From a virus: a stretch of DNA of 21,200 nt. Within the stretch, counting starts at the first letter, position 1. The number at the start of each line of letters is the position of its first letter. The notes under the pieces were generated by a model. It saw only the letters and a list, made by a program, of their open reading frames with translations. It searched no databases and was not told the DNA's origin. This document shows positions 1,241-19,047 of this stretch, one piece after another. Where the stretch lies: IMG/VR virus record IMGVR_UViG_3300044823_000114, positions 1 through 21,200 of that record; one strand, given 5' to 3'. A program made the position numbers and the translations under genes.

Positions 1241-3754
1241 CTAGTCACCTAATATTATGATATAAACATTATCAGTAGCCGAGGTTACTTCAATCGTACT
1301 TCCCCACGTCGCTACCGGAAATTGGCCGAAGAACGCGCATTGTTGCGGCTGTAACGTAAACGTATATAGTGTATCTTTAATCGTTAGGTTATACGTATGA
1401 GCGGTTCCGTATTGTTGATTCTGTACGCAAATAACTTCGATTCCGGTATTAGTAAACGCCGTATCGACGGGTGCGGGGATGTATGTGTAACTTGGTACAG
1501 TACCGGAACTTGAAAGGGCGATTGCAGAAAGCGCCGCCTCTAGTGGGGTATTCGCTCTCATCTTCGCAGTCGCAGTTACACCTAAAATTGAAACCTGTAC
1601 GACCGGAACGTTCGCGGTCGGGGTAACAACTGCTGTAACACCTGTAACGGCTGTCGGGATAACGCCAACGTTCGCGGTCGGATGAGCCGTCGCGGTAATT
1701 CCAACGGTGCTTGTCGAGATAACCGACACATATGCCGTAGGGGCGTTAGTAGCGGAAACACCATAGATGCTTACGTTAACTGGAAGTGAATTCGCGGTAG
1801 GATTTACCGTAGCTGTTACGCCCGATACACTCACGCCCGGTTGCGAGACATTTGCAGAAGGACTAATACTAGCGGTAACTCCCGAGACTATTATCTCAGA
1901 ATACCCAAATAAAACATAACAAATCTGCGTCGCTACAGCGTTATTAGTCGACCAGAACGGGGCAAAGCCGCCCTTTTGGAATAGATAGGCGTTAGGGTTA
2001 TGGCTATCGTTGTTTACAATCATCGTGATTCCGTAACTATTAATCCAAAAGCCTTCTCCTTCATCGAGTGAAAGCTGAGCGTAGAGCGGATACGATTGCG
2101 CCCCGCCGCTAGTATTCATTTTTAAAATATCGGTATAAAGAGGATTGTAGCCGAGAGAGAGATAGAGATTCCCGTCGTAGTATTTTATATCCTGCACGCA
2201 CGAGATAGTGGGACTTGGCGTTATAGCGCCAATATACGCTCCCGTCGTTAAATTGTATTGATAAATATACTGTGGATTATTATAACAGCCAGTGACCCAT
2301 AGGATGTTATGGTCGGGGTCTGCCGCGCATCCCGACGGGTCGAATCCCTGTGCAGAGACGTCCCAATAAGTAACAAAGCTTAAATCCGACGCGTTAAATA
2401 TGCCGATTCTACCCTGATTATGAGACGAACCGTTCATTTGTGCGGTGTAAATCTTTCCATCATAATACGTGATACCACCACAATGGTCGTCACCGGTCTG
2501 TGTAGCTATGTTAGTATTCGTAGCGATAACGTTCCAATTTGAATCGTATTTATAAAGCGCGGTCGCTCCTGAACCATAGGTGTACACTCCATCACTTTCG
2601 ACGCCCTGACTACAACTAAGCGCTCCGCTTACCGCTACCGTTCTCATCGCCGATATTACGCCTAATGCTTCGGTAGTAGCCGTGTCGTTATCGCTTATCT
2701 GTAGACTTTCGGTAGTATATTGCCCCTTTTTAGTTACCGTTGTCGTAGCGCCATTCTTATCGGTATGCCACGCGACCTGAGAGTTGTTAGACGAGTCCGT
2801 AGCGCCTATCATTAGTCTATGCCCGGTTAACACGCTTCCCGACGCGGCGTGACTATCCGACATTAGCAATACGCTAGTTGACGATATTCCCGAAGCCGCT
2901 ACTGAATCGAATACGGGGCCAAGTGTGCTAGTTGATTTTGACCAATTTCCGACCTGATACTTTCCGCCTTTTAGGCATAGTGTAATCATATAGTAACTTG
3001 CATAGCCGCTACTATTCGTGTCCCACGCGAGTCTAAACCCATTCGAGAGCATCGCGCCCGTCGCGTGACTCGTTATCGTCGTACCAGCGCCCACGCACGC
3101 GACTACAGAGCCATCGGTGACTTGTAACCTTGTAGCGGAAGACGTAGTTTGACCCGCGAGGCTATACCCCCATTTAGCCCATTGATTCGTTCCGTCATAC
3201 GCGCCAAGCATATAGAGTAAATTTGACGTATTACTTCCTGACGCGACTGCCGCACCTGCGTGAAGTACGACGTCGGGCTGAAATCCCGGGCTTGTAATAT
3301 CTTGATTTCCTGTAGTAGTCTGTGCAGTCCACGGTACAACCGTTGCGTTCGTTATGTCGCTTCCGCCGAGAGCGAGGAAGTGATACGTCGGGGCGAATGT
3401 GGTCGTTGTCCAGTTTATCGTAAACCCATCAGCGTCAAGCGACGTAAGTGCGCCTTCGTGGATAGTACTACCCGTATATTGTACATAGCCGCATATTGCG
3501 CTATTATTCATTCTACGATACGACGAGGTAGTAGTAACGCCGCTATTCGCGACGATAGCGATATAGCCTTGATGAGTGCTATCCGTAGCGAAGCCGTAGC
3601 AGAACTGACAATCGGTTCCGGCAGACCACCCCTCGGCAGCTTGCGCGGTTCCCCAAATGATAAGTGCCTTCGGCTGGAAGCCCACACCCGTAATAGATTG
3701 CGATTGCGGACTCGCTGGCGCGTCAAAGTTACCTGTTTTGGAGTAAAACGTCAT
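1241..3754 (-). CDS. Large modular virion surface protein with inserted beta-propeller and 20-residue repeats
   Basis: This 837-residue protein is probably a fibre or adhesin. Residues 1-371 plus 598-617 align with residues 1-398 of the 1385-residue protein: shared anchors include GVGFQPKALIIWG, FLALGGSD, PGFQPDVVLH, TLCLKGG and ATQICYV. Between the halves, residues about 372-597 hold blades such as GGITYYDGKIYTA, HNILWVTGCYN and QDIKYYDGNLYLS, typical of a YncE/NHL-like beta-propeller. Residues 621-740 hold six 20-residue repeats, and 745-837 form a final beta domain. There is no signal peptide or transmembrane helix. The ATG lies 4 bases after the preceding stop and no clear Shine-Dalgarno site is visible, so expression may depend on coupling. 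A role in host or glycan binding is inferred from architecture only. Confidence 0.85.
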   Translation of the reverse strand: MTFYSKTGNFDAPASPQSQSITGVGFQPKALIIWGTAQAAEGWSAGTDCQFCYGFATDSTHQGYIAIVANSGVTTTSSYRRMNNSAICGYVQYTGSTIHEGALTSLDADGFTINWTTTTFAPTYHFLALGGSDITNATVVPWTAQTTTGNQDITSPGFQPDVVLHAGAAVASGSNTSNLLYMLGAYDGTNQWAKWGYSLAGQTTSSATRLQVTDGSVVACVGAGTTITSHATGAMLSNGFRLAWDTNSSGYASYYMITLCLKGGKYQVGNWSKSTSTLGPVFDSVAASGISSTSVLLMSDSHAASGSVLTGHRLMIGATDSSNNSQVAWHTDKNGATTTVTKKGQYTTESLQISDNDTATTEALGVISAMRTVAVSGALSCSQGVESDGVYTYGSGATALYKYDSNWNVIATNTNIATQTGDDHCGGITYYDGKIYTAQMNGSSHNQGRIGIFNASDLSFVTYWDVSAQGFDPSGCAADPDHNILWVTGCYNNPQYIYQYNLTTGAYIGAITPSPTISCVQDIKYYDGNLYLSLGYNPLYTDILKMNTSGGAQSYPLYAQLSLDEGEGFWINSYGITMIVNNDSHNPNAYLFQKGGFAPFWSTNNAVATQICYVLFGYSEIIVSGVTASISPSANVSQPGVSVSGVTATVNPTANSLPVNVSIYGVSATNAPTAYVSVISTSTVGITATAHPTANVGVIPTAVTGVTAVVTPTANVPVVQVSILGVTATAKMRANTPLEAALSAIALSSSGTVPSYTYIPAPVDTAFTNTGIEVICVQNQQYGTAHTYNLTIKDTLYTFTLQPQQCAFFGQFPVATWGSTIEVTSATDNVYIIILGD
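1535..1888 (-). repeat. Six tandem 20-residue (60-bp) repeats
   Basis: Residues 621-740 of the 837-residue protein form six units with a strict 20-residue period and consensus close to VS-x-x-GVTAT-x-x-PTAN-V. The GVT/GVS/GIT core falls at residues 625, 645, 665, 685, 705 and 725. DNA copies have diverged, but blocks such as acgttcgcggtcgg recur at 1607-1620 and 1669-1682. The units are short beta hairpin-like segments, probably forming a stalk. Confidence 0.85.
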
Positions 3755-4857: not shown

Positions 4858-5222
4858 TATGAATCAACTCCGATAAGTGTGATACTCTGCCCGAGCCGTA
4901 ACAATCCCGACGTGATAATATTCTCCGCGTTTGTTGAGTTATGAATACGTAGCTCGTGGTCATACGTGAGTGGAATAAGAGCTTCGGTATCGGCCTTCGC
5001 AAAAGCGAGCGTTACAGACTCTTCATCTACGTTAATCGAAATTCCGCCGTTACCATCGACTAGGTTATCCTTCTCTAATACGATTCCAGTTAGCGTGTGA
5101 TACATCTTCCACGTAAACGTAGCCCCTTCGACGTCTAGCGGTTCTCCCGCTTTTACTATCGGGATACTAACGGCTATGTCCTCTCCCGCGTCGAATCCTA
5201 TATCTTGATTAATTGCAGCCAT
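4857..5222 (-). CDS. Small Ig-like beta-sandwich virion protein
   Basis: This 121-residue protein has the pattern of a single beta-sandwich domain seen in baseplate-upper-type phage proteins: an N-terminal GEDIAVSIPIV, then GEPLDVEGATFTWKMYHTLTG, VDEESVTLAFAKADTEALIP and a closing YDHELRIHNST. It overlaps its upstream and downstream neighbours by one base each (TAATG on both sides), placing it between the 1385-residue repeat protein and the connector in one coupled set. It could be an assembly partner or cap for the large protein. The fold is read from pattern only and the function is not known. Confidence 0.75.
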   Translation of the reverse strand: MAAINQDIGFDAGEDIAVSIPIVKAGEPLDVEGATFTWKMYHTLTGIVLEKDNLVDGNGGISINVDEESVTLAFAKADTEALIPLTYDHELRIHNSTNAENIITSGLLRLGQSITLIGVDS

Positions 5223-8200
5223 TAAATCCCACCATTAAGTGTAAAATCATCGTTAACCTCGCCGGAGAGGTCTTTAGTATCGGTTTTATCTCCGTTTATT
5301 GAAAACTCGGTATCTACGTCTCCGCTTGCTTCGAGCGTAGAAACATTGCCATTAAGGCTAAACGAATCATCTACTTCACCGGCTGCGTTGATGATTCTCT
5401 GAATTTGATAAATATAAATTTCTTTAATGTCTATCGCATTAGCGACGCACCCTACAGCGCTTACTAAGATACTTGAACTAATCGAGAAGCTTACGGGTTC
5501 ATAATCCGCGACGCCGCTCGGAATAAGACGTATAATGGCGTTAATCGAAGGTGTTACGCTAAGCGAACTCGCGATACCATTTACCATAGAGGCCGCTATA
5601 GACAGCGTAGTTGAAGGCGCTAATGACATAGCGACACCATTTGGTTGCGCTACAACAGGGCCAACCGTCGGCGTTACGCCACTCGCTGATGAAACGCTAC
5701 TCGGTTGTGTCGTAAATGAGTTAAGCGAAACAAAGGATGATTGCGCGAAAGAACTACAGCTCGGTTGTCCTACGAATACAATAAGCGGTGGGGTGCCTAC
5801 GAAAACGCTTGTTCCTGCAACGAAGTCGGAAACCGCACCCGGCGCATTTACCGAAACGTTTGAGCTAACTATAAGTGAAGATAATTGATAATCCGCTACC
5901 GCCTCGACCTGTGAGGCGAGTGTACTTAATGAAGCTTTAATTGATTGTATAATTGCTACGCCGCTCGGTTGCGTACCGGTTACGCTCATTGAAATATATG
6001 GTAACTGCTGGTCAGCGACGCCATCGACCTGCGAGACTAATGCGTTTAATATGGGCGTAATTGATTGAACGTTCGAAGTCGCCGACGGCTGTGCGCAAGC
6101 GATGGCTATACTCGAAATGACGTTTAGGCTATCTGCTATACCACTCGGTGCGCTTGTAGACGTAGAAAGCGATACTACGGGTAGGAGTGCCGCGGTTGTA
6201 CATCCAACGGCGCTTACTACGGGACTATTTATCGGAAATGCCACGTTAGGTAGCTGCTGGTCAGCGATACATCCCGGTTGGGATACATAGACTATATCGC
6301 TCGCGGAAGGAATGATAGCTGGCTGATACGTTGCTACGCAGCCCGAGCACGTTCCAGTTACGCCTAACGACGTTGACGCGGCTTGCGTAGTCGAAATACA
6401 GCCGACTTGAGAAACGTTAGGCGAGTTAATCGGAAACGCTAAGGCCGGTGCTTGAAAATCTGCTGTGCATCCTACGAGACTAGTCGCGACGTTTAGCGAA
6501 GAGGTTATCGGCTGTGCTGATGAGATACTACCCGGTTGCGTTCCCGATATATTCGAGCTAACGGTAAACGTAACCGCTTGCGTAGTAGCTATGCTACTTG
6601 GCTGCGTGCTAGTTGTGCTAAGCCCAACAGAAGCAGTTAAAAGGTTTAAAATACATCCCGGCTGCCCTACAACTACCTGCGCTGCCGTTAAGAGTGTGAT
6701 GGGTTGATACGTTGCGATACCGCTTGGTTGTTTGCCGGTTGCGCTTAATGACAATGCTACAGCTTGCGTAGCCGTAGAACATCCGACTTGTGGTGCTAAA
6801 GGTGAATTAATAGGAATACTAATCGATGCAGCTTGAGAACTAGCAGTACCGCCTAATTGACTTACCGCGCTACTTAACGATGATGCTATTGCTTGTATCG
6901 TCGACGTCGCGCTCGGCTGTGTGCCGATTATGCTAGATGTAACTAAAACTGATTGAATGGTAGAACTTGCGCCTAACTGTGCGACCGTCGTGGCTAACGC
7001 GATAGATGCAGTTAAGAAGTCTGAGATACATCCCGGCTGACCTACAATTACCTGCTCAGCACCTGCCGAGATAGTAATCGGCTGATACGTTGCGATACAG
7101 CTAGGTTGTTTGCCGGTTGCGCTTAATGATAATGCTACAATTTGTGTAGCCGCAGAACAGCCAACTTGTGAAACGTTAGGTGAGTTAATAGGGATACTAA
7201 TCGACGTAGCTTGTTGAGTAGCGGTACATCCTAATTGACTTACCGCGCTACCTAACGATGATGCTACCGCTTGTATCGTCGATGTTGCCGCTGGTTGTGA
7301 GCCGGTTATACTCGAGCTAAGAGAAGCCGCTTGAGATGTAGAACTCGCGCCCGGCTGTGTTCCGGTAGATGTAAGTTTAGTAGAAGCAGTTAAGAAGTTT
7401 GAAACACATCCCGGCTGCGATACCGTTACGCTTTCGGATTCGTTTAGCGTAATAGGTTGGTATGTAGCGATACAGCTCGGTTGTGTGCCTGTTATTCCTA
7501 AAGACGTAGATATAGCTTGTATCGTAGAGATACTAGCCGGTTGCGGTGCCGCGACGTTTGAGCTAACCATAAACGTAACGGCTTGCATATTAGAGGTTCC
7601 GCTTGGTTGCGTGCCGGATACCCCTAATGAGGCTAATGCGGCTTGTCTATCGAAAGTTCCGCTCGGTTGAGTTCCCGTTATACTAAAGCTAGTCGCTACA
7701 GCTTGTTTATCTACCGTACAGCCTAGTTGCGAAGCTGATGCACCAATAGATGATGCCACCGATTGTCTATCCGACGTGCCGCTAGGTTGTGGTGCGGAAG
7801 CGTTTGAGCTAACGGTAAACGTAACCGCTTGATAAGTGGAAGTACATCCTGATTGACTTCCAGTAATTTTTAACGCAGTCGCTACGGCTTGTTTATCTAA
7901 CGTTCCGCCCGGTTGTGTTCCGGTTATGCTACTTGAAATCGATGCCGCTTGTCTATCGGCCGTACAGCCTCGTTGTGTGCCGCTTAGCGACGTACTAATA
8001 GCAACCGCTTGTTGCGCCGATGTCGCGCCCGGCTGTGTTCCAGTTATATTCGAGCTAGACTTAACTGTAATCGCTTGATAGGTCGAAGTCGCTCCCGGTT
8101 GGGTTCCGGTTATATTTGAGGTAACCCCAATTGCTTGTTGTGCCGCCGTACTTCCGCTCTGTGTTCCGGTCACGGAAGCGTTCATTACGCCAGTATTAAA

Positions 8201-9379
8201 CGTAATATAACAAATCTGCGTAGCGGTAGCGTTATTTGTGGCCCACGTCGTCGTAAACTGATTTACCGTTCCAGAAAATGATGTAGTAGCAAGCGCGTCG
8301 GCAGTTTCCGCGTCGTTATCACACACCACGATTGAATTAGCCGTGTACCACCCTCGCGCGGTTACCGTTGTTGTAACGCCGTTTTTATCTTGAAAAGCGC
8401 CTGTATAGCGGTTTGTGCCGTCGTCGGCGCCTACTGTAAGACGTAAGCCAGCTATAATACTCGTTGACGCGGCAGTACTCGCCGTTACAAAGAGCGCACC
8501 TACGGGTACTGACTTACACGTACAGGTAACTGTATCTGTACTTCCGCTAGCGCCGGTCGTTTTCGACCAGCTACCACATCCTAATTCAGACGCGGCTCCG
8601 CCTTTTAAACATAAAGAAAATACGTATTGCGTTGAGCTAGTATTCGTGCCGAAGTTAATAGAAAAACCATCCGAGCCCATCGCACTATACGCGCCTAAGT
8701 TAATTTGAGCATTATTCCAGAGCCCCGAGATACAATTATCCGTTCTCTGTTGTCGATTGGTTACGGTTGTCGTATCGCCGGTCATAGCGTTAACCGACGC
8801 GACCCATTGATTTCCGCTACTATCCATAGCGCCTATCATCTGCACCGCGCTAGTTCCGGTGCCTATCGCGTTCTGTTGGTCGGTAAAGTGAAGAACTAAA
8901 TCCGGTTTAAATCCAACGCCGGTTACGCTCTGAACGCCCGTTCCTGCGGCAATCTGCCACGACTTAACGTACGCGTTCGATAAATCACCACCGAGGGCGA
9001 TATATGAAATTTGATAACCCGACGCGTACGTAGTACTCCATGTTATCGTGAATCCGGTAGGGCTAGAGTTAAACGACGTGAGCGTCGCTTCGAGCCTAGT
9101 AGTTCCGGTAGAGTCTACTTGCGTTATGCACTTAGTAGTAGAGTTTCTACGTGTCGCGACTGAGGTAGTCTGTGCGGCGAGCGACGTCGTACCTGTAGAC
9201 GCCATATTCGAGCTAGACGTCGCTACACCGATTCCATTTAGATATGTGACCCACCAACCGGCTACCGCGACGGCGTGAAAAAAGATAATAGCCTTTGGGG
9301 TAAACGGCGTGCTAACTGTCTGCGCGCCATTAGACGTAGGAGAGGTAAACACCCCAACAGAAGTAGTTATACCGGCCAT
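5222..9379 (-). CDS. Giant repeat-rich virion surface protein (1385 residues), fibre or adhesin-like
   Basis: Residues 1-398 form a module shared with the 837-residue protein, itself two related halves (PFTPKAIIFF and GVGFKPDLVLH; ISYIALGGDL and FSLCLKGG). Residues about 402-1313 hold some 44 degenerate repeats of 17-24 residues centred on TGTQPSGTSTYQAV or SQVGC variants. About 20 units carry a Cys, unusual for a phage fibre. Residues 1331-1384 hold three copies of GEVDDSFSLNG-like motifs. There is no signal peptide or membrane helix, so it is probably a virion component, not a secreted protein. The ATG overlaps the stop of the Cys-rich 127-residue gene (TAATG) behind AGGA. Ser, Thr, Ala and Gln dominate, while Lys, Glu, Met and His are scarce in the repeats. 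A role in host binding or head decoration is inferred. Confidence 0.85.
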   Translation of the reverse strand: MAGITTSVGVFTSPTSNGAQTVSTPFTPKAIIFFHAVAVAGWWVTYLNGIGVATSSSNMASTGTTSLAAQTTSVATRRNSTTKCITQVDSTGTTRLEATLTSFNSSPTGFTITWSTTYASGYQISYIALGGDLSNAYVKSWQIAAGTGVQSVTGVGFKPDLVLHFTDQQNAIGTGTSAVQMIGAMDSSGNQWVASVNAMTGDTTTVTNRQQRTDNCISGLWNNAQINLGAYSAMGSDGFSINFGTNTSSTQYVFSLCLKGGAASELGCGSWSKTTGASGSTDTVTCTCKSVPVGALFVTASTAASTSIIAGLRLTVGADDGTNRYTGAFQDKNGVTTTVTARGWYTANSIVVCDNDAETADALATTSFSGTVNQFTTTWATNNATATQICYITFNTGVMNASVTGTQSGSTAAQQAIGVTSNITGTQPGATSTYQAITVKSSSNITGTQPGATSAQQAVAISTSLSGTQRGCTADRQAASISSSITGTQPGGTLDKQAVATALKITGSQSGCTSTYQAVTFTVSSNASAPQPSGTSDRQSVASSIGASASQLGCTVDKQAVATSFSITGTQPSGTFDRQAALASLGVSGTQPSGTSNMQAVTFMVSSNVAAPQPASISTIQAISTSLGITGTQPSCIATYQPITLNESESVTVSQPGCVSNFLTASTKLTSTGTQPGASSTSQAASLSSSITGSQPAATSTIQAVASSLGSAVSQLGCTATQQATSISIPINSPNVSQVGCSAATQIVALSLSATGKQPSCIATYQPITISAGAEQVIVGQPGCISDFLTASIALATTVAQLGASSTIQSVLVTSSIIGTQPSATSTIQAIASSLSSAVSQLGGTASSQAASISIPINSPLAPQVGCSTATQAVALSLSATGKQPSGIATYQPITLLTAAQVVVGQPGCILNLLTASVGLSTTSTQPSSIATTQAVTFTVSSNISGTQPGSISSAQPITSSLNVATSLVGCTADFQAPALAFPINSPNVSQVGCISTTQAASTSLGVTGTCSGCVATYQPAIIPSASDIVYVSQPGCIADQQLPNVAFPINSPVVSAVGCTTAALLPVVSLSTSTSAPSGIADSLNVISSIAIACAQPSATSNVQSITPILNALVSQVDGVADQQLPYISMSVTGTQPSGVAIIQSIKASLSTLASQVEAVADYQLSSLIVSSNVSVNAPGAVSDFVAGTSVFVGTPPLIVFVGQPSCSSFAQSSFVSLNSFTTQPSSVSSASGVTPTVGPVVAQPNGVAMSLAPSTTLSIAASMVNGIASSLSVTPSINAIIRLIPSGVADYEPVSFSISSSILVSAVGCVANAIDIKEIYIYQIQRIINAAGEVDDSFSLNGNVSTLEASGDVDTEFSINGDKTDTKDLSGEVNDDFTLNGGI
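5441..8176 (-). repeat. About 44 degenerate tandem repeats of roughly 21 residues
   Basis: Codons for residues 402-1313 of the 1385-residue protein. The best-kept units read TGTQPSGTSxxQAVTxSLx; others replace the core by VSQPGC, VSQLGC or VSQVGC. The count was made by eye from Q-P or Q-x-G cores and may be off by two or three. Similarity is clearer in protein than in DNA except in the super-repeat section, so most copies are old. Confidence 0.85.
6338..7471 (-). repeat. Higher-order super-repeat, three periods of about 126 residues (378 bp)
   Basis: The segment IATYQPIT starts at residues 637, 762 and 888, with a weaker copy (VATYQPAI) at 1015, so groups of six units recur as a block. Inside each block the order is the same: YQP unit, SQPGC or GQPGC unit, a TQ/AQ unit, an STIQA unit, an SQLG unit and an SPxxxQVGC unit. 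DNA supports a recent duplication: 26 bases at 6726-6751 are identical to 7104-7129, exactly 378 bp apart. Confidence 0.85.
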
Positions 9380-12491: not shown

Positions 12492-13736
12492 TTAAGCAGC
12501 GCCCCAACCTTTAACTGACTTCATAACAGCGCCAGCGAGGTCGTATCGCATTGCGAAATCGTGCATACTAACCGCTCGAATAACCGTTTGGTCCTCCGAG
12601 AAGGTTGCTACGACGTTCATTCCATCGTAATAAGCCGCCGTATTGCTAACGTCTATTCTCACCTGCATTGAGTCGCCAATGAACGCGTCATCGAAGTTCA
12701 CAAAGTAGATTTCTGAACAGTTAGAAACCGGACTACCCGTAGTTGAATCAGTTAGGTTAGTCGGAATCTGAGTCGTGACAGCGTAGGGGAATCTAAGCAA
12801 CTTGCCTGTCGCCATTTCGGGCTGGAAAGCGTAGTTACCGAGCGAATCCCTTATTGTCATAAGGTAATACTCAATCTGAGGTGCGAATATCCAACCGCAG
12901 TTTGTCATGGGTATGTTCGCTTGGCGCAATTTGAGGATGCACGTCGCGAGGTCATTCGTGACACTCTGAAGGTTAGAATAGGTTGGTGTGCCTCCTTCTG
13001 CCGAGGGCTGCGTAGCCGCGAATTGGTTCGTTGGGCTAATCCAGTTAAGAAGACCTTTTGGCGTATTAACAGTGCCGTCGCCTCGCATAAAGGCTTGGTC
13101 TTCGCGCTGCGCCATCGCTTTAACGAGGTCTTCTCGTACGATTTGGTCGGCAGCGATTGTGTTTACCTGCAAAAGCTCGTTTGAGATTGGGACAAGTGCG
13201 GCTAGTTTCTTAGCTGCAAGTGTTATCTGACCAAAGCTCTGTTGCGTTGCTTGTATGTTGACGTTTTCACCAACATAGGTCGCGTTAGCACCACCCGTCA
13301 CCTTCGGAATACTCATCTGAAGGTTGTTGAGAGGTAGCACTCTAGCGCCCATAGAACGCATAACAGAGGCGGGTCTTAGGAATTCAATAATCTCAGTCGA
13401 TAGGACTTCTGGAACCAAAAACCCACCACTAACATCTTGGTTCGCACTAAGAGCCTTTGTAACTTCGGCTTTATCGCCGAAGACTCTAGTTGCGAAGTTA
13501 AGTGGGCTTTCACGGTTCTTCTCAGCCATAACGAGAGCTTTAATGAATCCGCTAACTGTATTTCCCATCTGAGCTGAAGCAGCGGTTTTCGTAGAAGTCT
13601 GCTCGCCTCCAAGTTGTGAACGAACGTTAAGATTATCGCGGATTGCCGCGCCTTTCTTAACCTCTTCCATAACGGGAGCAAGCATATCCTTAATCAACGC
13701 GCTAATATCATTGCGCGTCATATGTGCTTCTTCCAT
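12492..13736 (-). CDS. Major capsid protein, HK97 fold
   Basis: This 414-residue protein shows the standard HK97-family course. Residues 1-95 form a mainly helical delta region, cut off by the protease during maturation. The mature part starts near ANQDVSGGFLVPE (98-110), followed by a segment ending in MRSMGARVLPLNN, then MSIPKVTGGANATYVGENV for the E-loop side and LVPISNELLQ, QREDQAFMRGDG and TPKGLLNW for the spine helix and P-domain. The C-terminal A-domain contains FDDAFIGDSMQVRIDVS. Start ATG 13736 is preferred over 13721 because GGAGA lies 7 bases upstream. The exact cleavage site is not determined. Confidence 0.93.
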   Translation of the reverse strand: MEEAHMTRNDISALIKDMLAPVMEEVKKGAAIRDNLNVRSQLGGEQTSTKTAASAQMGNTVSGFIKALVMAEKNRESPLNFATRVFGDKAEVTKALSANQDVSGGFLVPEVLSTEIIEFLRPASVMRSMGARVLPLNNLQMSIPKVTGGANATYVGENVNIQATQQSFGQITLAAKKLAALVPISNELLQVNTIAADQIVREDLVKAMAQREDQAFMRGDGTVNTPKGLLNWISPTNQFAATQPSAEGGTPTYSNLQSVTNDLATCILKLRQANIPMTNCGWIFAPQIEYYLMTIRDSLGNYAFQPEMATGKLLRFPYAVTTQIPTNLTDSTTGSPVSNCSEIYFVNFDDAFIGDSMQVRIDVSNTAAYYDGMNVVATFSEDQTVIRAVSMHDFAMRYDLAGAVMKSVKGWGAA

Positions 13737-13789: not shown

Positions 13790-16102
13790 CTACAAATTTA
13801 ATTGCTTTTTAAGCTCGGTTACGGTGTCTTTCAACATTTCACCAAGCTCATTCACGTCGACGGTGTAGACTTCTTCGACGTCTTCGAGTTTCTTTGCAGT
13901 TGGTTGTCCGGGCGTTGTCGGCGGGTTCACCGGCTCTTGGTCTTCGGGTTCGGTGTTCTGTTCGTCGTTACCACCCTCTTCCTTATCGAGAACCGATTTT
14001 ACCGCATCGAAGCCTTTCTGATAGCACTTGATAGCCTCGTCGTGAGCCGCTGCCGCTTTCGCGTGGGCTTTCGTTACCGCCTCGTGTGCTTTCATGGCTG
14101 CTTCGTGATGCCCGAATCCTTCTGAGAATTTACCGAGCGCTTCGTTAAGCGCTGTGCCGGTATCCTTAGAGATTCGTCTACCTGCCTTCGTCGTCGTAAT
14201 ATCCATCATTTTTTTGAATAGTTTAGTCGCTTCTTTCTCGTCGTCGGACTCCCACGGTGCGCTATCGCCGAAATCGTGGTAGTGCTTCTCGAGATGTGAT
14301 TTAATAGCAGCTAGGTCACCGGCTGGAACCTTAAGAGGACTCCGTGCTCCTTGTATAGCTCCACCGCAACCCTGCACGCCGTTTAATACGCACGAGTGCG
14401 AACCGCTTGCCATATGATGCGGAAGCTTGTAACTACTCTTCGCGTCGGGGTCACCATCGGGGTCGACCCACGTACACATAATCTTTAAATCATCGGGTTC
14501 GGCTGCTGCGATTTGACCGGGGCCGTCCCACGCTGCGTCTTCACTGGCTAGGGGTGTTTTCGTATAAGGAATTGCACCCTTAGTCGTCTTACTTCCGCGA
14601 GCTTCGTCGCAGTCGGTCGGAGATTTGTCTTCTTTACATTTCTCGTCAGCGAAATTATCGCACCCACCGCATTGCCTACCGTTCGGTGCTTTCTCGTGCT
14701 TCTCTTCGTCTTTAGGCGGCTCTTCATCTTCACCGTCATTAGAATTATCACACGAGTCGGGAGTTTCGTCTTGACTACACTGCCCGTCTTTGAAGTTCTT
14801 GCACTCGCCGCACGCGTCTTCGTTTGCACTAACAGCTTTCTCGTCGACTTCTTTCGTAGCCTCTTCGACGTCTTTAACTTCGTCTTTAGATTCTTCGACG
14901 TCTTTAGCTACGTCTTCTTTAGAATCGACTTCCTTTTGCTTAGCAGAACCCGATTGGTCATCGGTACTAACATCCCACGGTAAGTCTTCTTTAAACTCAC
15001 TCATATGTTGGTTCATATGGTCGAGAATAATCTGGTTATCGTTCTGCGTGAAACCGAGGTGGTCAACGTCGCCATCCTGAGTACTTTCTTGTTTCATATG
15101 CCCCTCGTCGTCCTGTTCTGGTGTGACGAGTAGCTGTGCGGCGACGGCTTTACCGATTCGCTTAACCGCTTTTAGATTAACCTCATGAGGCGCATCGCCT
15201 GTGTGATGTGCATATTGATAACCGTCTTTAGTCGACTCGTCATCGCCGGTAAATCCCGCGTGCATTGCGCGAAAGTGCTCTGCCTTAGTAGCCTTAGAGC
15301 GTTCTGAATTCGCGTTCCACGTGGCGTCTTTAGCAGAGAGTGGCGTGCCGTTTGGGTGAGCGTCTTTATAACTTATCGCTCCTTTTCGCATTTTGACATC
15401 TCCTTTATTATTAGTGTCGCCGCCTTCAGGCACAAGTGCGCCACCTGCGGCCTCATCTGAAATTCCTAACGCTTTTTCGTTAGGACACGAACAATTTTTA
15501 AGGGCATCTTCGGCCCATTTCTTAAGCTCGACCCTCATCGATTTAAGTTCATTATTCGTAACGTCCTTCGCGCTCGCGCCTATTTGCAGCGCTCCGGGAT
15601 TCGACGGCACAGGTACACAAGAGTATTCAATTAAATCTTGCTTCATAAAGTGCGTACCGCCTAAATAATTCGCATCTCCATTCTGTTTCTTCATAGCCTC
15701 CCAATCGATAGGATAAAAGCCAGCAGAAACAGCGTTAAGAAAACCATTTTTATAAAATCTAAACACGGTGCTTCCACGAAGTCCGTGATAATCCGCGTCG
15801 TATAATTCGTCTGGTGTAAATTCAACTATTGAATTAAGCGCAGTTCCCACGACCCACGTCTTTATAGCGCGGCCTACGGGGAGCTTCGTATAATCGTGAG
15901 CCCACATGACGACGGGGTTTTTGGTGTAATTACCGAGCGTCCACCCTTTTGCGTCTAAACTATCGCCGTCGCGGTCGACCTCTTCGTTGCTTACGGTAAA
16001 AGCAAGACGCATCGCGCTATCGGTTGAAACGTCTTTAACTTCGCTTAGCTTAAGGGTCTTATAGACCGGAACGCCCTGTACAACCTCATCTATGAGCGTC
16101 AT
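13790..16102 (-). CDS. Prohead serine protease fused to accessory domains and a scaffold-like tail
   Basis: This 770-residue protein is far longer than a plain prohead protease (about 180-250). Residues 1-180 match the S78 / HK97 family: NPVVMWAHDY with likely catalytic His69, LNAVSAGFYP with likely Ser126, and LIEYSCVPVPSNPGALQIGA. Residues 239-377 and 508-618 are two diverged copies of a domain with SAKDATWNA / ASEDAAWDG, YQYAHH / YKLPHH and a closing MSEFKEDLPWD / YHDFGDSAPWE; such a domain occurs in other phage proteases. Between them lie an acidic linker and two Cys knuckles. Residues 641-770 are helical and charged with repeated AHE/AHD motifs, like a scaffold or delta domain. The ATG has AAGGTGGAAG upstream. 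It cleaves capsid precursors and may also scaffold them. Confidence 0.88.
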   Translation of the reverse strand: MTLIDEVVQGVPVYKTLKLSEVKDVSTDSAMRLAFTVSNEEVDRDGDSLDAKGWTLGNYTKNPVVMWAHDYTKLPVGRAIKTWVVGTALNSIVEFTPDELYDADYHGLRGSTVFRFYKNGFLNAVSAGFYPIDWEAMKKQNGDANYLGGTHFMKQDLIEYSCVPVPSNPGALQIGASAKDVTNNELKSMRVELKKWAEDALKNCSCPNEKALGISDEAAGGALVPEGGDTNNKGDVKMRKGAISYKDAHPNGTPLSAKDATWNANSERSKATKAEHFRAMHAGFTGDDESTKDGYQYAHHTGDAPHEVNLKAVKRIGKAVAAQLLVTPEQDDEGHMKQESTQDGDVDHLGFTQNDNQIILDHMNQHMSEFKEDLPWDVSTDDQSGSAKQKEVDSKEDVAKDVEESKDEVKDVEEATKEVDEKAVSANEDACGECKNFKDGQCSQDETPDSCDNSNDGEDEEPPKDEEKHEKAPNGRQCGGCDNFADEKCKEDKSPTDCDEARGSKTTKGAIPYTKTPLASEDAAWDGPGQIAAAEPDDLKIMCTWVDPDGDPDAKSSYKLPHHMASGSHSCVLNGVQGCGGAIQGARSPLKVPAGDLAAIKSHLEKHYHDFGDSAPWESDDEKEATKLFKKMMDITTTKAGRRISKDTGTALNEALGKFSEGFGHHEAAMKAHEAVTKAHAKAAAAHDEAIKCYQKGFDAVKSVLDKEEGGNDEQNTEPEDQEPVNPPTTPGQPTAKKLEDVEEVYTVDVNELGEMLKDTVTELKKQLNL
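14606..14815 (-). repeat. Two Cys-knuckle copies inside the protease gene
   Basis: C431, C434, C442 and C451 of the protease and C478, C481, C489 and C498 share the spacing C-x2-C-x7-C-x8-C, and the surroundings are alike: CGECKNFKDGQCSQDETPDS and CGGCDNFADEKCKEDKSPTD. Each is likely a small zinc site. They are joined by an acidic linker. Confidence 0.8.
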
Positions 16103-16817: not shown

Positions 16818-17045
16818 TTAGGTATTATCGTTAGGCCGCAACTTCACGTCGATTAACTTATTCTGCTCTTCTTTCTCGAGCGTTGCTAGCTTTATAAAAC
16901 ACGGATTACAGAGCCACTTTAGATGTTCGGGAGTTCCAAATAATGTGAATCGTTTTGATGTACCGTCATCGTTAAACCACGACGTTTTACAGTTAGCGCA
17001 GTGGTCGGGCGGCATTAAAGTGATAATGGGTAATTTTGTAGGCAT
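16818..17045 (-). CDS. Small Cys4 zinc-binding protein
   Basis: This 75-residue protein has two CxxC pairs (HCANCKTSW and WLCNPCFIKL) about 30 residues apart, as in a zinc ribbon, followed by a short charged helix and an unstructured end. The ATG shares a base with the TAA of the portal gene (TAATG), so it is probably translated by re-initiation after the portal. Function is unknown; association with the portal or packaging complex is only suggested by position. Confidence 0.75.
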   Translation of the reverse strand: MPTKLPIITLMPPDHCANCKTSWFNDDGTSKRFTLFGTPEHLKWLCNPCFIKLATLEKEEQNKLIDVKLRPNDNT

Positions 17046-18460
17046 TATTGTTTCCTCGGTCGTCGTGTGTACCGTTCTAAGTCTCTTAGGCGTTTTGTTT
17101 TCTTACCGCGAATCTTGCCGAACGGCGTTTTAGTCTCGCCATATGCCTCTTTACCGGCTTGCGGTGGTGGCGCGACGGCCGGAACCTGCACTATGCCTTT
17201 CTTTAGACTCGAAAGAACCTGTACGTTAATTGGTACAACGAAACACTCGCCGTCACCATCGGGTAACGGGTCGTATTCCATTAATGCTCGCCATTCGTCA
17301 ATCATAAGCGCCGTCGGCATAAACCGAGCAGCTTTTAGGATTATGTCCTTATCTTTCTGCACCGGATTAACGTAGAGCATCACCAATTCGCCAGTGTCGT
17401 CGAATCGGGGAATTAGTTGTTTATTAAGAACCTCTTGTAAAAAGTCAAGTCGGGGTCGAAGCGTATAACGAGAAAAGAATAAGTCTGCTGCGTCGATAGT
17501 TGCTCTATTCGACGACTGAAGAATTCCAAGTATCTCGGGTGGCACACCGATAACTGAAGCCACGACGTCTCTCTGATGCTGTCGTAGGTTTACAATATCC
17601 GCGCCTTCGAACTTCTGAGAGAGTTCTTTTATCTCTACCTTTCGGCTTAAGAATCGAACTTTTCCGGCGTTCCAAAATCCCTGATGCTGTAGGTTCCAAT
17701 CGTCTTCGAGCTGCTTCACACGTTCTGCGTTAAGCCCTTCTCCGTAAATGAGCAGTGGTGGCCGTGCTTGATTATTAAAGTAGCTTAATACATAACGAGA
17801 AGCAGCGTCGTCCGTGTCGAGGTCATGAGAAAGAGATTGCGCTAGGCCAACACCTCTAGAATACGGGTCGGCCGGGTCTGGGTGCGCGAACCAGATAACC
17901 TCGCCCATATCGAGCTTGAATTCGCCCTTCGGCCCCGAAATAGTAAAATACGGCTCATCGGCGGTTGGTGTTCGAACTACCTTACCGGGGGATATAGGAT
18001 AAGCGTTTATGACGCCCTGTATCGGCACCATCCACCAAAAAGCCTCACCTACAAGTTCTAAATAAACTTGCGTGAGCCATATTAATTGTTGAAAACTAAA
18101 CTGAGAATTAGGATTATTAATAAAAACTTGAAGCGGAATAATTTCTTGCGGCTCTTCCTCTATAACGTTCATTCCGCCCGTTTTATTGGGCTCGTTTCGA
18201 ACGAAACGAATGTCCCAATCGTTCTGAGCGATAGAATTAGCTACCTTTGTTACCGAGGTTCGTAACCACGGGAGTTCTGCAAAAGCTTTTAAATATGCGG
18301 GAATATCTCGCTTTATAGAAGCAGTAACTTGGTCACCGACGATTCTCGCGAGAACGTCTTGGTCGCTACTCGGCGTTTGATTTAATTGTTGAATACCTGC
18401 GCGTAGACCAAGTCTATTAGTGAACCTTCGAAAAAGCGTCCGCTCTTCGGATTGAGCCAC
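17045..18460 (-). CDS. Portal protein, HK97 type
   Basis: This 471-residue protein matches the HK97-type portal family, which forms the dodecameric DNA entry channel at one capsid vertex. Visible landmarks are VTKVANSIAQNDWDIRF (70-86), NNPNSQFSFQQLIWLTQVYL then GEAFWWMVP (115-146), VIWFAHPDPADPYSRGVGLA (188-207), FNNQARPPLLIYGE, VASVIGVPPEILGILQSSNR and SRYTLRPRLDFLQEVLNKQL. The stem and wing regions are complete. The C-terminal about 50 residues are Pro-, Lys- and Arg-rich. Start is GTG at 18460; no strong Shine-Dalgarno site is seen, but no better start precedes the conserved part. Confidence 0.93.
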   Translation of the reverse strand: MAQSEERTLFRRFTNRLGLRAGIQQLNQTPSSDQDVLARIVGDQVTASIKRDIPAYLKAFAELPWLRTSVTKVANSIAQNDWDIRFVRNEPNKTGGMNVIEEEPQEIIPLQVFINNPNSQFSFQQLIWLTQVYLELVGEAFWWMVPIQGVINAYPISPGKVVRTPTADEPYFTISGPKGEFKLDMGEVIWFAHPDPADPYSRGVGLAQSLSHDLDTDDAASRYVLSYFNNQARPPLLIYGEGLNAERVKQLEDDWNLQHQGFWNAGKVRFLSRKVEIKELSQKFEGADIVNLRQHQRDVVASVIGVPPEILGILQSSNRATIDAADLFFSRYTLRPRLDFLQEVLNKQLIPRFDDTGELVMLYVNPVQKDKDIILKAARFMPTALMIDEWRALMEYDPLPDGDGECFVVPINVQVLSSLKKGIVQVPAVAPPPQAGKEAYGETKTPFGKIRGKKTKRLRDLERYTRRPRKQ

Positions 18461-18543: not shown

Positions 18544-19047
18544 TTACACCTCTAAAAATTCAAGTGATTTTTTATATGCCTCGATAAGTTCGTCTCTACT
18601 CGGTAATTCACCTCGTTTTGTTTTAAGTCTATGACACGTCGCGCAAAGAATCTGAAACCCATCTGGAAAATCATTCGCGATAATCCACGCGGTAATAGAA
18701 TTAGACCCCACTTCTACTCGGTGTTTCGCACCGTCTCCGTTTTTATGGTCAATCTCTAAACAATCATAAATCGGTAATCCACAATTTGTACAATACAGCG
18801 TTCCATCTGTATAATGTGTAATAACTTTAAGTCTGTACCGCTCACTTGCACAATTACGTTTTTCCGGGTGTTCCCAATAATACTCCCGTTGTTTTCGGTT
18901 ACGTTCTTCGCTAAATTCGGGAATCTTTCGTTGTTCTCGTAGATTTTTACGCCTACGTTCTTTCTGACCTTCGCGATATTCTTTGTTATTCTTATACCGC
19001 TCGCGAGCATATTCGCGATATTCGGGGGTTTTATAATCTGTACTCAA
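18544..19047 (-). CDS. HNH endonuclease, free-standing
   Basis: This 167-residue protein has a basic helical N-terminal half (residues 8-75, rich in Arg, Lys and Glu) likely to bind DNA, and a C-terminal HNH domain: C86-x2-C89, the catalytic-type LEIDHKNGDG with H101 and N103, GFQILCATCHRLK with C135, C138 and H139. The Cys pairs should hold a structural zinc. Such stand-alone nucleases in phages are often homing elements, or assist packaging when they sit near terminase and portal genes. Start is TTG at 19047, the first possible one after an in-frame stop; the Shine-Dalgarno signal is weak. Confidence 0.88.
   Translation of the reverse strand: MSTDYKTPEYREYARERYKNNKEYREGQKERRRKNLREQRKIPEFSEERNRKQREYYWEHPEKRNCASERYRLKVITHYTDGTLYCTNCGLPIYDCLEIDHKNGDGAKHRVEVGSNSITAWIIANDFPDGFQILCATCHRLKTKRGELPSRDELIEAYKKSLEFLEV

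Follow-up and report, generated by a model that had tools for sequence, protein, structure and literature searches.

Here, we propose that a single 770-residue chain serves an HK97-type tailed phage as a prohead protease-scaffold polyprotein that cleaves itself and carries a nested start, a reading to which we give an even chance of being right. This is based on a protease fold with its catalytic triad, a pair of homologous accessory domains, a conserved Shine-Dalgarno (SD) sequence with its ATG, and capsid-like motifs, all of them supported by sequence comparison and structure modelling. The gene lies in a 21,200-base IMG/VR virus record (here called the window; Table 1), and its start ATG is preceded by an SD-like sequence (GAAGGTGGAAGA-ATG). 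A first-pass annotation had described the chain as a protease joined to a duplicated domain, Cys knuckles and a helical tail, and the open reading frame (ORF) and all of these parts are confirmed here.

Table 1. Coordinates of the features discussed, numbered on the window
Feature	Residues	Coordinates	Strand	Basis or remark
Major capsid protein	414 aa, pro-region 1-94	12492-13736	-	PF05065 1.8e-51; HK97 alignment
Predicted capsid cut	K94/A95	13455-13457/13452-13454	-	Aligned with HK97 K103/S104
Proposed protease-scaffold ORF	770 aa plus stop	13790-16102	-	
Prohead protease domain	1-182	15557-16102	-	phrog_617, invariant H/S/E, AF2 and Foldseek
Catalytic residues	H69; S126; E159	15896-15898; 15725-15727; 15626-15628	-	
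Capsid-type cleavage motif 1, EKALGISDEAAGGALVP	209-225	15428-15478	-	Predicted cut K210/A211
SD core GGAGAT of candidate nested start		15398-15403	-	Strongest of 87; codons identical in four lineages
Candidate nested in-frame start ATG	M238	15389-15391	-	Product 533 aa (13793-15391), without protease
Accessory domain copy 1	238-377	14972-15391	-	Homologous to copy 2 (hhalign)
Acidic linker	378-430	14813-14971	-	19/53 D/E; AF2 pLDDT <50
Capsid-type cleavage motif 2, EKAVSANEDACGECK	421-435	14798-14842	-	Predicted cut K422/A423
Cys knuckle 1	431-451	14750-14812	-	C-x2-C-x7-C-x8-C
Cys knuckle 2	478-498	14609-14671	-	C-x2-C-x7-C-x8-C
Accessory domain copy 2	505-619	14246-14590	-	66 related loci; AF2
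Helical charged tail	620-770	13793-14245	-	GRxxS...ALNEALG motif; C-terminal helix 750-769
Coiled-coil ORF	217 aa	16151-16804		Between portal and protease genes
Portal gene		17045-18460		Upstream of 770-aa ORF

By sequence and structural model, residues 1 to about 170-182 are an HK97-type (S78-like) prohead protease, as the first-pass annotation had it. In a PHROG profile search, phrog_617 aligns through its protease part with residues 8-197 (E 2e-16); the NCBIfam model TIGR01543 matches the window protein weakly, below its cut-off (E 0.0023), and the Pfam S78 family (PF04586) is reached by wider relatives and not by the window protein itself. Aligning 30 relatives left seven positions without variation, the putative catalytic residues H69, S126 and E159 among them. 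The AF2 model of this part is confident over most of residues 1-170 (pLDDT mostly >90), and among PDB structures Foldseek finds one significant match to it, the T4 gp21 capsid assembly protease (5jbl, E 1e-4), with herpesvirus proteases ranking next without being significant. Family and fold similarity and a His-Ser-Glu set are thus found together with adjoining portal and HK97-fold capsid genes. In L012:5764-8736, an S78-like prohead protease and an AAA+ ATPase (PF00004, E 6e-19) are fused into one 990-aa ORF upstream of a capsid gene. In three other loci (L069:1138-2836, L073:3139-5002 and L078:3142-5017) the protease is apparently split over two ORFs: one of about 200-245 aa ends soon past the Ser-type motif (GYSIGY...), and the next opens with what appears to be the last protease strand, followed by an accessory domain and a GRVLS tail. 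Either a frameshift or a genuine split could account for this arrangement.

The genes run portal, protease, capsid, the capsid gene following directly on the 770-aa ORF; a 75-aa Cys protein and a 217-aa coiled-coil ORF stand between the portal gene and the protease. As had been claimed, no scaffold gene separates protease from capsid, either in the window or in the related loci L004, L007 and L008, which have portal, protease and capsid genes and no separate scaffold gene. The coiled-coil ORF has a hydrophobic C-terminal segment; it is kept in L004 and was not seen in L007 or L008. As a scaffold candidate it is disfavoured by that hydrophobic C-terminus and by the lack of any such ORF between the portal and protease genes of L007 and L008. 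Elsewhere in the window, an HNH-endonuclease-like ORF (18544-19047; CTNCG...EIDHKNGDG) lies immediately upstream of the portal gene, and two highly repetitive structural proteins are encoded, one of 1385 aa (5222-9379) with many GTQPxxxS/TxxQA-like units and one of 837 aa (1241-3754) with many GVTAxxxPTANV-like units.

What does the missing scaffold gene say about the protease? On its own it proves little, and it is what an HK97-like phage would lead one to expect, because the capsid protein has a pro-region of its own. Its Phage_capsid match (PF05065) begins only at residue 104, and in an alignment with HK97 gp5, whose scaffold (delta) domain and cut at K103/S104 are known (PMC10275583), K94 falls on K103, the residue before the cut. 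The capsid protein thus appears to have an HK97-type N-terminal pro-region of about 94 residues, with an N-terminal coil that looks shorter than that of HK97. A search of genome contigs with the capsid protein gave no match. For systems of the lambda C/Nu3 and Mu I/Z kind, one expects no other scaffold in the phage; here the capsid pro-region is present, and it may make another scaffold unnecessary. An alternative would be an ordinary HK97-like system, with the capsid pro-region as scaffold, a protease produced at full length only, and an extension that brings it into the prohead or touches the portal. We regard this as unlikely, if less so than the other alternatives below: the alignment of the 94-residue pro-region with the HK97 scaffold domain speaks for it, as do the shorter helical tails and single accessory domains of many related prohead proteases, but it leaves unexplained both a nested SD and ATG conserved over saturated divergence and capsid-type motifs between the domains. 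The earlier suggestion that the fusion is protease and scaffold in one is therefore favoured on these two grounds, a conserved candidate start at M238 with a strong SD and the capsid-type motifs, rather than on the argument from the missing gene.

The motifs were sought with a leave-one-out PSSM built from six capsid cut sites. Motif 1, between the protease and accessory domain 1, is the best non-capsid match among the coding-strand ORFs of the window (15.6 bits, p 0.002), and motif 2, between accessory domain 1 and the knuckles, is the second best in the window (11.6 bits, p 0.004). Motif 2 is the weaker claim, since the next match, in the repetitive 1385-aa protein, scores nearly as high (11.2 bits). 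The best non-capsid match also falls in the protease ORF in L003, L007, L008 and L009. Scores reach 15.5 and 14.0 bits in L003, 24.9 in L007 and 27.7 in L009; L008 has lost the linker motif but has a capsid-type motif at residue 468 (15.0 bits), and the PSSM found no such motif in L048 or L049. When each linker was compared with its own capsid protein (for L003, with the nearly identical capsid protein of the window), the capsid cut region was picked out in the window, L003, L007 and L009 (p 0.001-0.002), the window match being KALGISDEAAGGALVP against KALSANQDVSGGFLVP. Over 48 pairs there was no general match between protease linker and own capsid site; only the five types of the window's clade match convincingly.

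The simplest reading of motifs 1 and 2, and a plausible one from sequence, is that the protease cuts itself where the capsid-type motif recurs. Self-cleavage between the domains had been raised in the first-pass annotation; capsid-type motifs do stand there, as candidate sites. Motifs of this type could also be evolutionary relics or serve in binding. The main rival to self-cleavage derives the linker motif from an ancestral protease-capsid fusion, as a relic and no cleavage site; we think this rather improbable. Such fusions have a precedent in phrog_617, which joins both proteins in one profile (protease at positions 4-171, capsid protein at 304-624), and the similarity between linker and capsid extends past the scissile bond into the capsid N-arm GGFLVP. 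A relic sits poorly, however, with the conservation of the motif in diverged lineages, with its position elsewhere in L008 and its second copy at residue 421, and with the end of capsid-like sequence after the linker motif.

Beyond the linker, the duplication of the accessory domain is real: profile-profile comparison (hhalign) shows the two copies to be homologous (E 4.5e-8, 29% identity). Copy 1 is found only in the window's clade, whereas a domain related to copy 2 is carried by 66 IMG/VR loci; in many of these it stands in an S78-like protease, between the protease part and a helical tail. Copy 2 is modelled well by AF2 (pLDDT 92, pTM 0.87) and copy 1 with low confidence only. The family conserves YKLPHH and H-L-x-x-H; copy 2 has YKLPHH...HxxxH and copy 1 keeps HH (299, 300), H362 and H366. 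The HH ... HxxxH pattern is conserved in both window copies and in most of 45 relatives, and it is a possible metal site. Searches of the PDB gave neither a sequence nor a fold match for the accessory domain; the accessory domains, the knuckles and the tail are without a model in Pfam, PHROG and NCBIfam; and a search of genome contigs with accessory domain 1 found no match. The domain also occurs in the head maturation protease of Thermus phage Riverbug and in MuF-type fusions of Streptomyces phages, and Foldseek matches of copy 2 in BFVD include the prohead protease of Halobacterium phage ChaoS9 (E 0.019). The Riverbug protein (L039:3485-4801) is apparently a Mu-like protease with the same accessory domain as the window protein, and it has a strong SD and ATG (M277) right after that domain, as a nested scaffold would predict. 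The single-copy domain is thus a widespread phage head module, well folded by prediction, that neither Pfam nor PHROG models and that matches no PDB fold, and its duplication together with Cys knuckles is restricted to a small clade. The duplicated domains and zinc knuckles had been called unusual; this applies to the combination, and not to single copies, which occur in dozens of phage head proteases, or to the knuckles, which number from none to about five in close relatives.

The two knuckles are identically spaced, as first described. They have no Pfam match; by their C-x2-C-x7-C-x8-C pattern they are candidate zinc knuckles, which may bind zinc. One knuckle is present in L003, at least four in L008, and none in L007 or L009, where another conserved module (NLQDLSAYHRRxHMFAAQGN...; L007:6001-8055, L009:71-2185) stands in the place of the knuckles and accessory domain 2. 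Their varying number and this replacement make the knuckles a variable insert. Within the extension, conservation is highest in the tail, above all in its ALNEALGxFSEGF stretch and C-terminal helix. As had been supposed, the tail is predicted to be helical, with four AF2 helices (620-635, 646-675, 680-706 and 750-769; pLDDT mostly 60-85). The variable insert would suit a different role for the accessory domains and knuckles, as proteins of the virion or the capsid interior (in nucleic acid binding or as a packaged effector, for example) that are delivered as a fusion to the protease, and the conserved His and Cys could bind metal. We nevertheless judge this reading improbable, with an extension that is acidic throughout, against nucleic acid binding, and with conservation concentrated in the tail and not in the insert.

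The candidate nested start, M238, is the first residue of accessory domain 1 and so marks the border with the protease. It is preceded by AATAAAGGAGATGTCAAA-ATG, which pairs more strongly with the anti-SD (duplex energy -8.7) than do the sequences before the 770-aa gene's own start (-7.3) and the capsid gene (-6.4). On the coding strand of the window, ORFs of at least 120 aa contain 87 internal in-frame ATGs, and the SD of M238 ranks first among them; the homologous SD ranks 1/93 in L007, 2/60 in L008 and 2/28 in L009. Synonymous shuffling of the window sequence by itself does not make the nested SD significant (p 0.18), so the case rests on conservation across lineages. Only 21-44% of 4-fold degenerate sites are identical between the window, L007, L008 and L009, a saturated synonymous divergence, despite which all four have GGA GAT here, codons that these genes use for only a minority of their Gly (18-25%) and Asp (27-41%). 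The ATG 8 nt past GGAG is likewise kept in all four lineages, including L008 with its inserted residue and different neighbourhood, and Met is absent at this position from most other members of the accessory-domain family. An in-frame internal start with an SD is thus found between the protease and the putative scaffold, as a sequence signal and in its conservation, and initiation at M238 is the use that we would predict for it. SD-like pausing has been proposed for other genes, and the SD-like sequence here does sit on a domain boundary, but that it slows ribosomes to aid folding, without starting translation, is very improbable in view of the retained ATG and the missing Met elsewhere. In relatives with one accessory domain, the top-ranked nested start lies just after the domain in L048 and L049 (-12.5 and -11.8; products of 176 and 175 aa) and just before it in L064 (-11.6; 272 aa). 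The top SD and ATG of some wider loci were rejected as starts, being merely accessory-domain coding sequence (GVAAAMAALLGARGG).

How might such a polyprotein work? The full-length chain would enter the prohead as protease, while a shorter and probably more abundant product from M238 would consist of the accessory domains, knuckles and helical tail, without the protease. The two would co-assemble, the M238 product acting as an internal scaffold or core, and the conserved C-terminal helices would bind this core to the shell or portal. Completion of the prohead would be followed by cleavage of the capsid protein after K94; using the same motif, the protease would also cut itself at K210 and probably K422, a step that would free it from the core and break the core up. 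We infer both the cleavage at K210 and K422 and the scaffold function, and the clade behind this proposal is small, with five distinct sequence types.

Several known systems invite comparison. The herpesvirus UL26/UL26.5 layout consists of a protease, a release site and a nested scaffold (PMC12474303). If our inferences hold, the window has the same protease, release site and shorter in-frame product, UL26.5 being the main herpesvirus scaffold. The systems differ in that UL26.5 is a gene starting inside UL26, whereas an internal ribosome-binding site is proposed here, that the window protease gives only a weak, non-significant structural match to herpesvirus protease, and that the window capsid protein also has its own pro-region. 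To our knowledge, UL26 is without accessory domains and knuckles. In lambda C/Nu3, the scaffold start lies in-frame within the protease gene. In Mu and Mu-like phages, too, the scaffold starts in-frame inside the protease gene, with an SD about 8 nt upstream (PMC4378225). The window shares with Mu I/Z and lambda C/Nu3 a candidate in-frame internal start with an SD in the protease gene, although the protease families differ. We know of no capsid-type motif at the border in either of them.

Closer to the window, HK97 gp4/gp5 also pairs an S78-type protease with an adjoining HK97-fold capsid protein that has an N-terminal scaffold domain and a cut site aligned at Lys, but gp4, at about 225 aa by record coordinates, is without accessory domains or nested scaffold, against 770 aa here. 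Single-domain proteases (L048, L049 and L064) are likewise S78-like, with an accessory domain, a GRVLS...N helical tail and, in some, a nested SD and ATG; they differ in having one domain copy and no Cys knuckles and, in L048 and L049, no capsid-type motif. We therefore file the window protein with the HK97-type prohead proteases, and as a member of neither the UL26/UL26.5 nor the Mu-like systems, which it would resemble by analogy in its working.

HK97 is the textbook case of a scaffold inside the capsid protein, whereas lambda, Mu and the herpesviruses nest the scaffold in the protease gene. We tentatively suggest, at somewhat less than an even chance, that the present HK97-type lineage runs two scaffolds at once, one being a capsid pro-region in shortened form and the other a nested core linked to the protease, and that a single protease frees the two through the same motif, as a phage counterpart of UL26/UL26.5 in the S78 family. 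If this is true, a cheap way of predicting prohead cleavage sites suggests itself, namely to seek the motif of the capsid pro-region in the protease gene, and a phage combining the two scaffold strategies, with one cut motif for both, would form a link between them.
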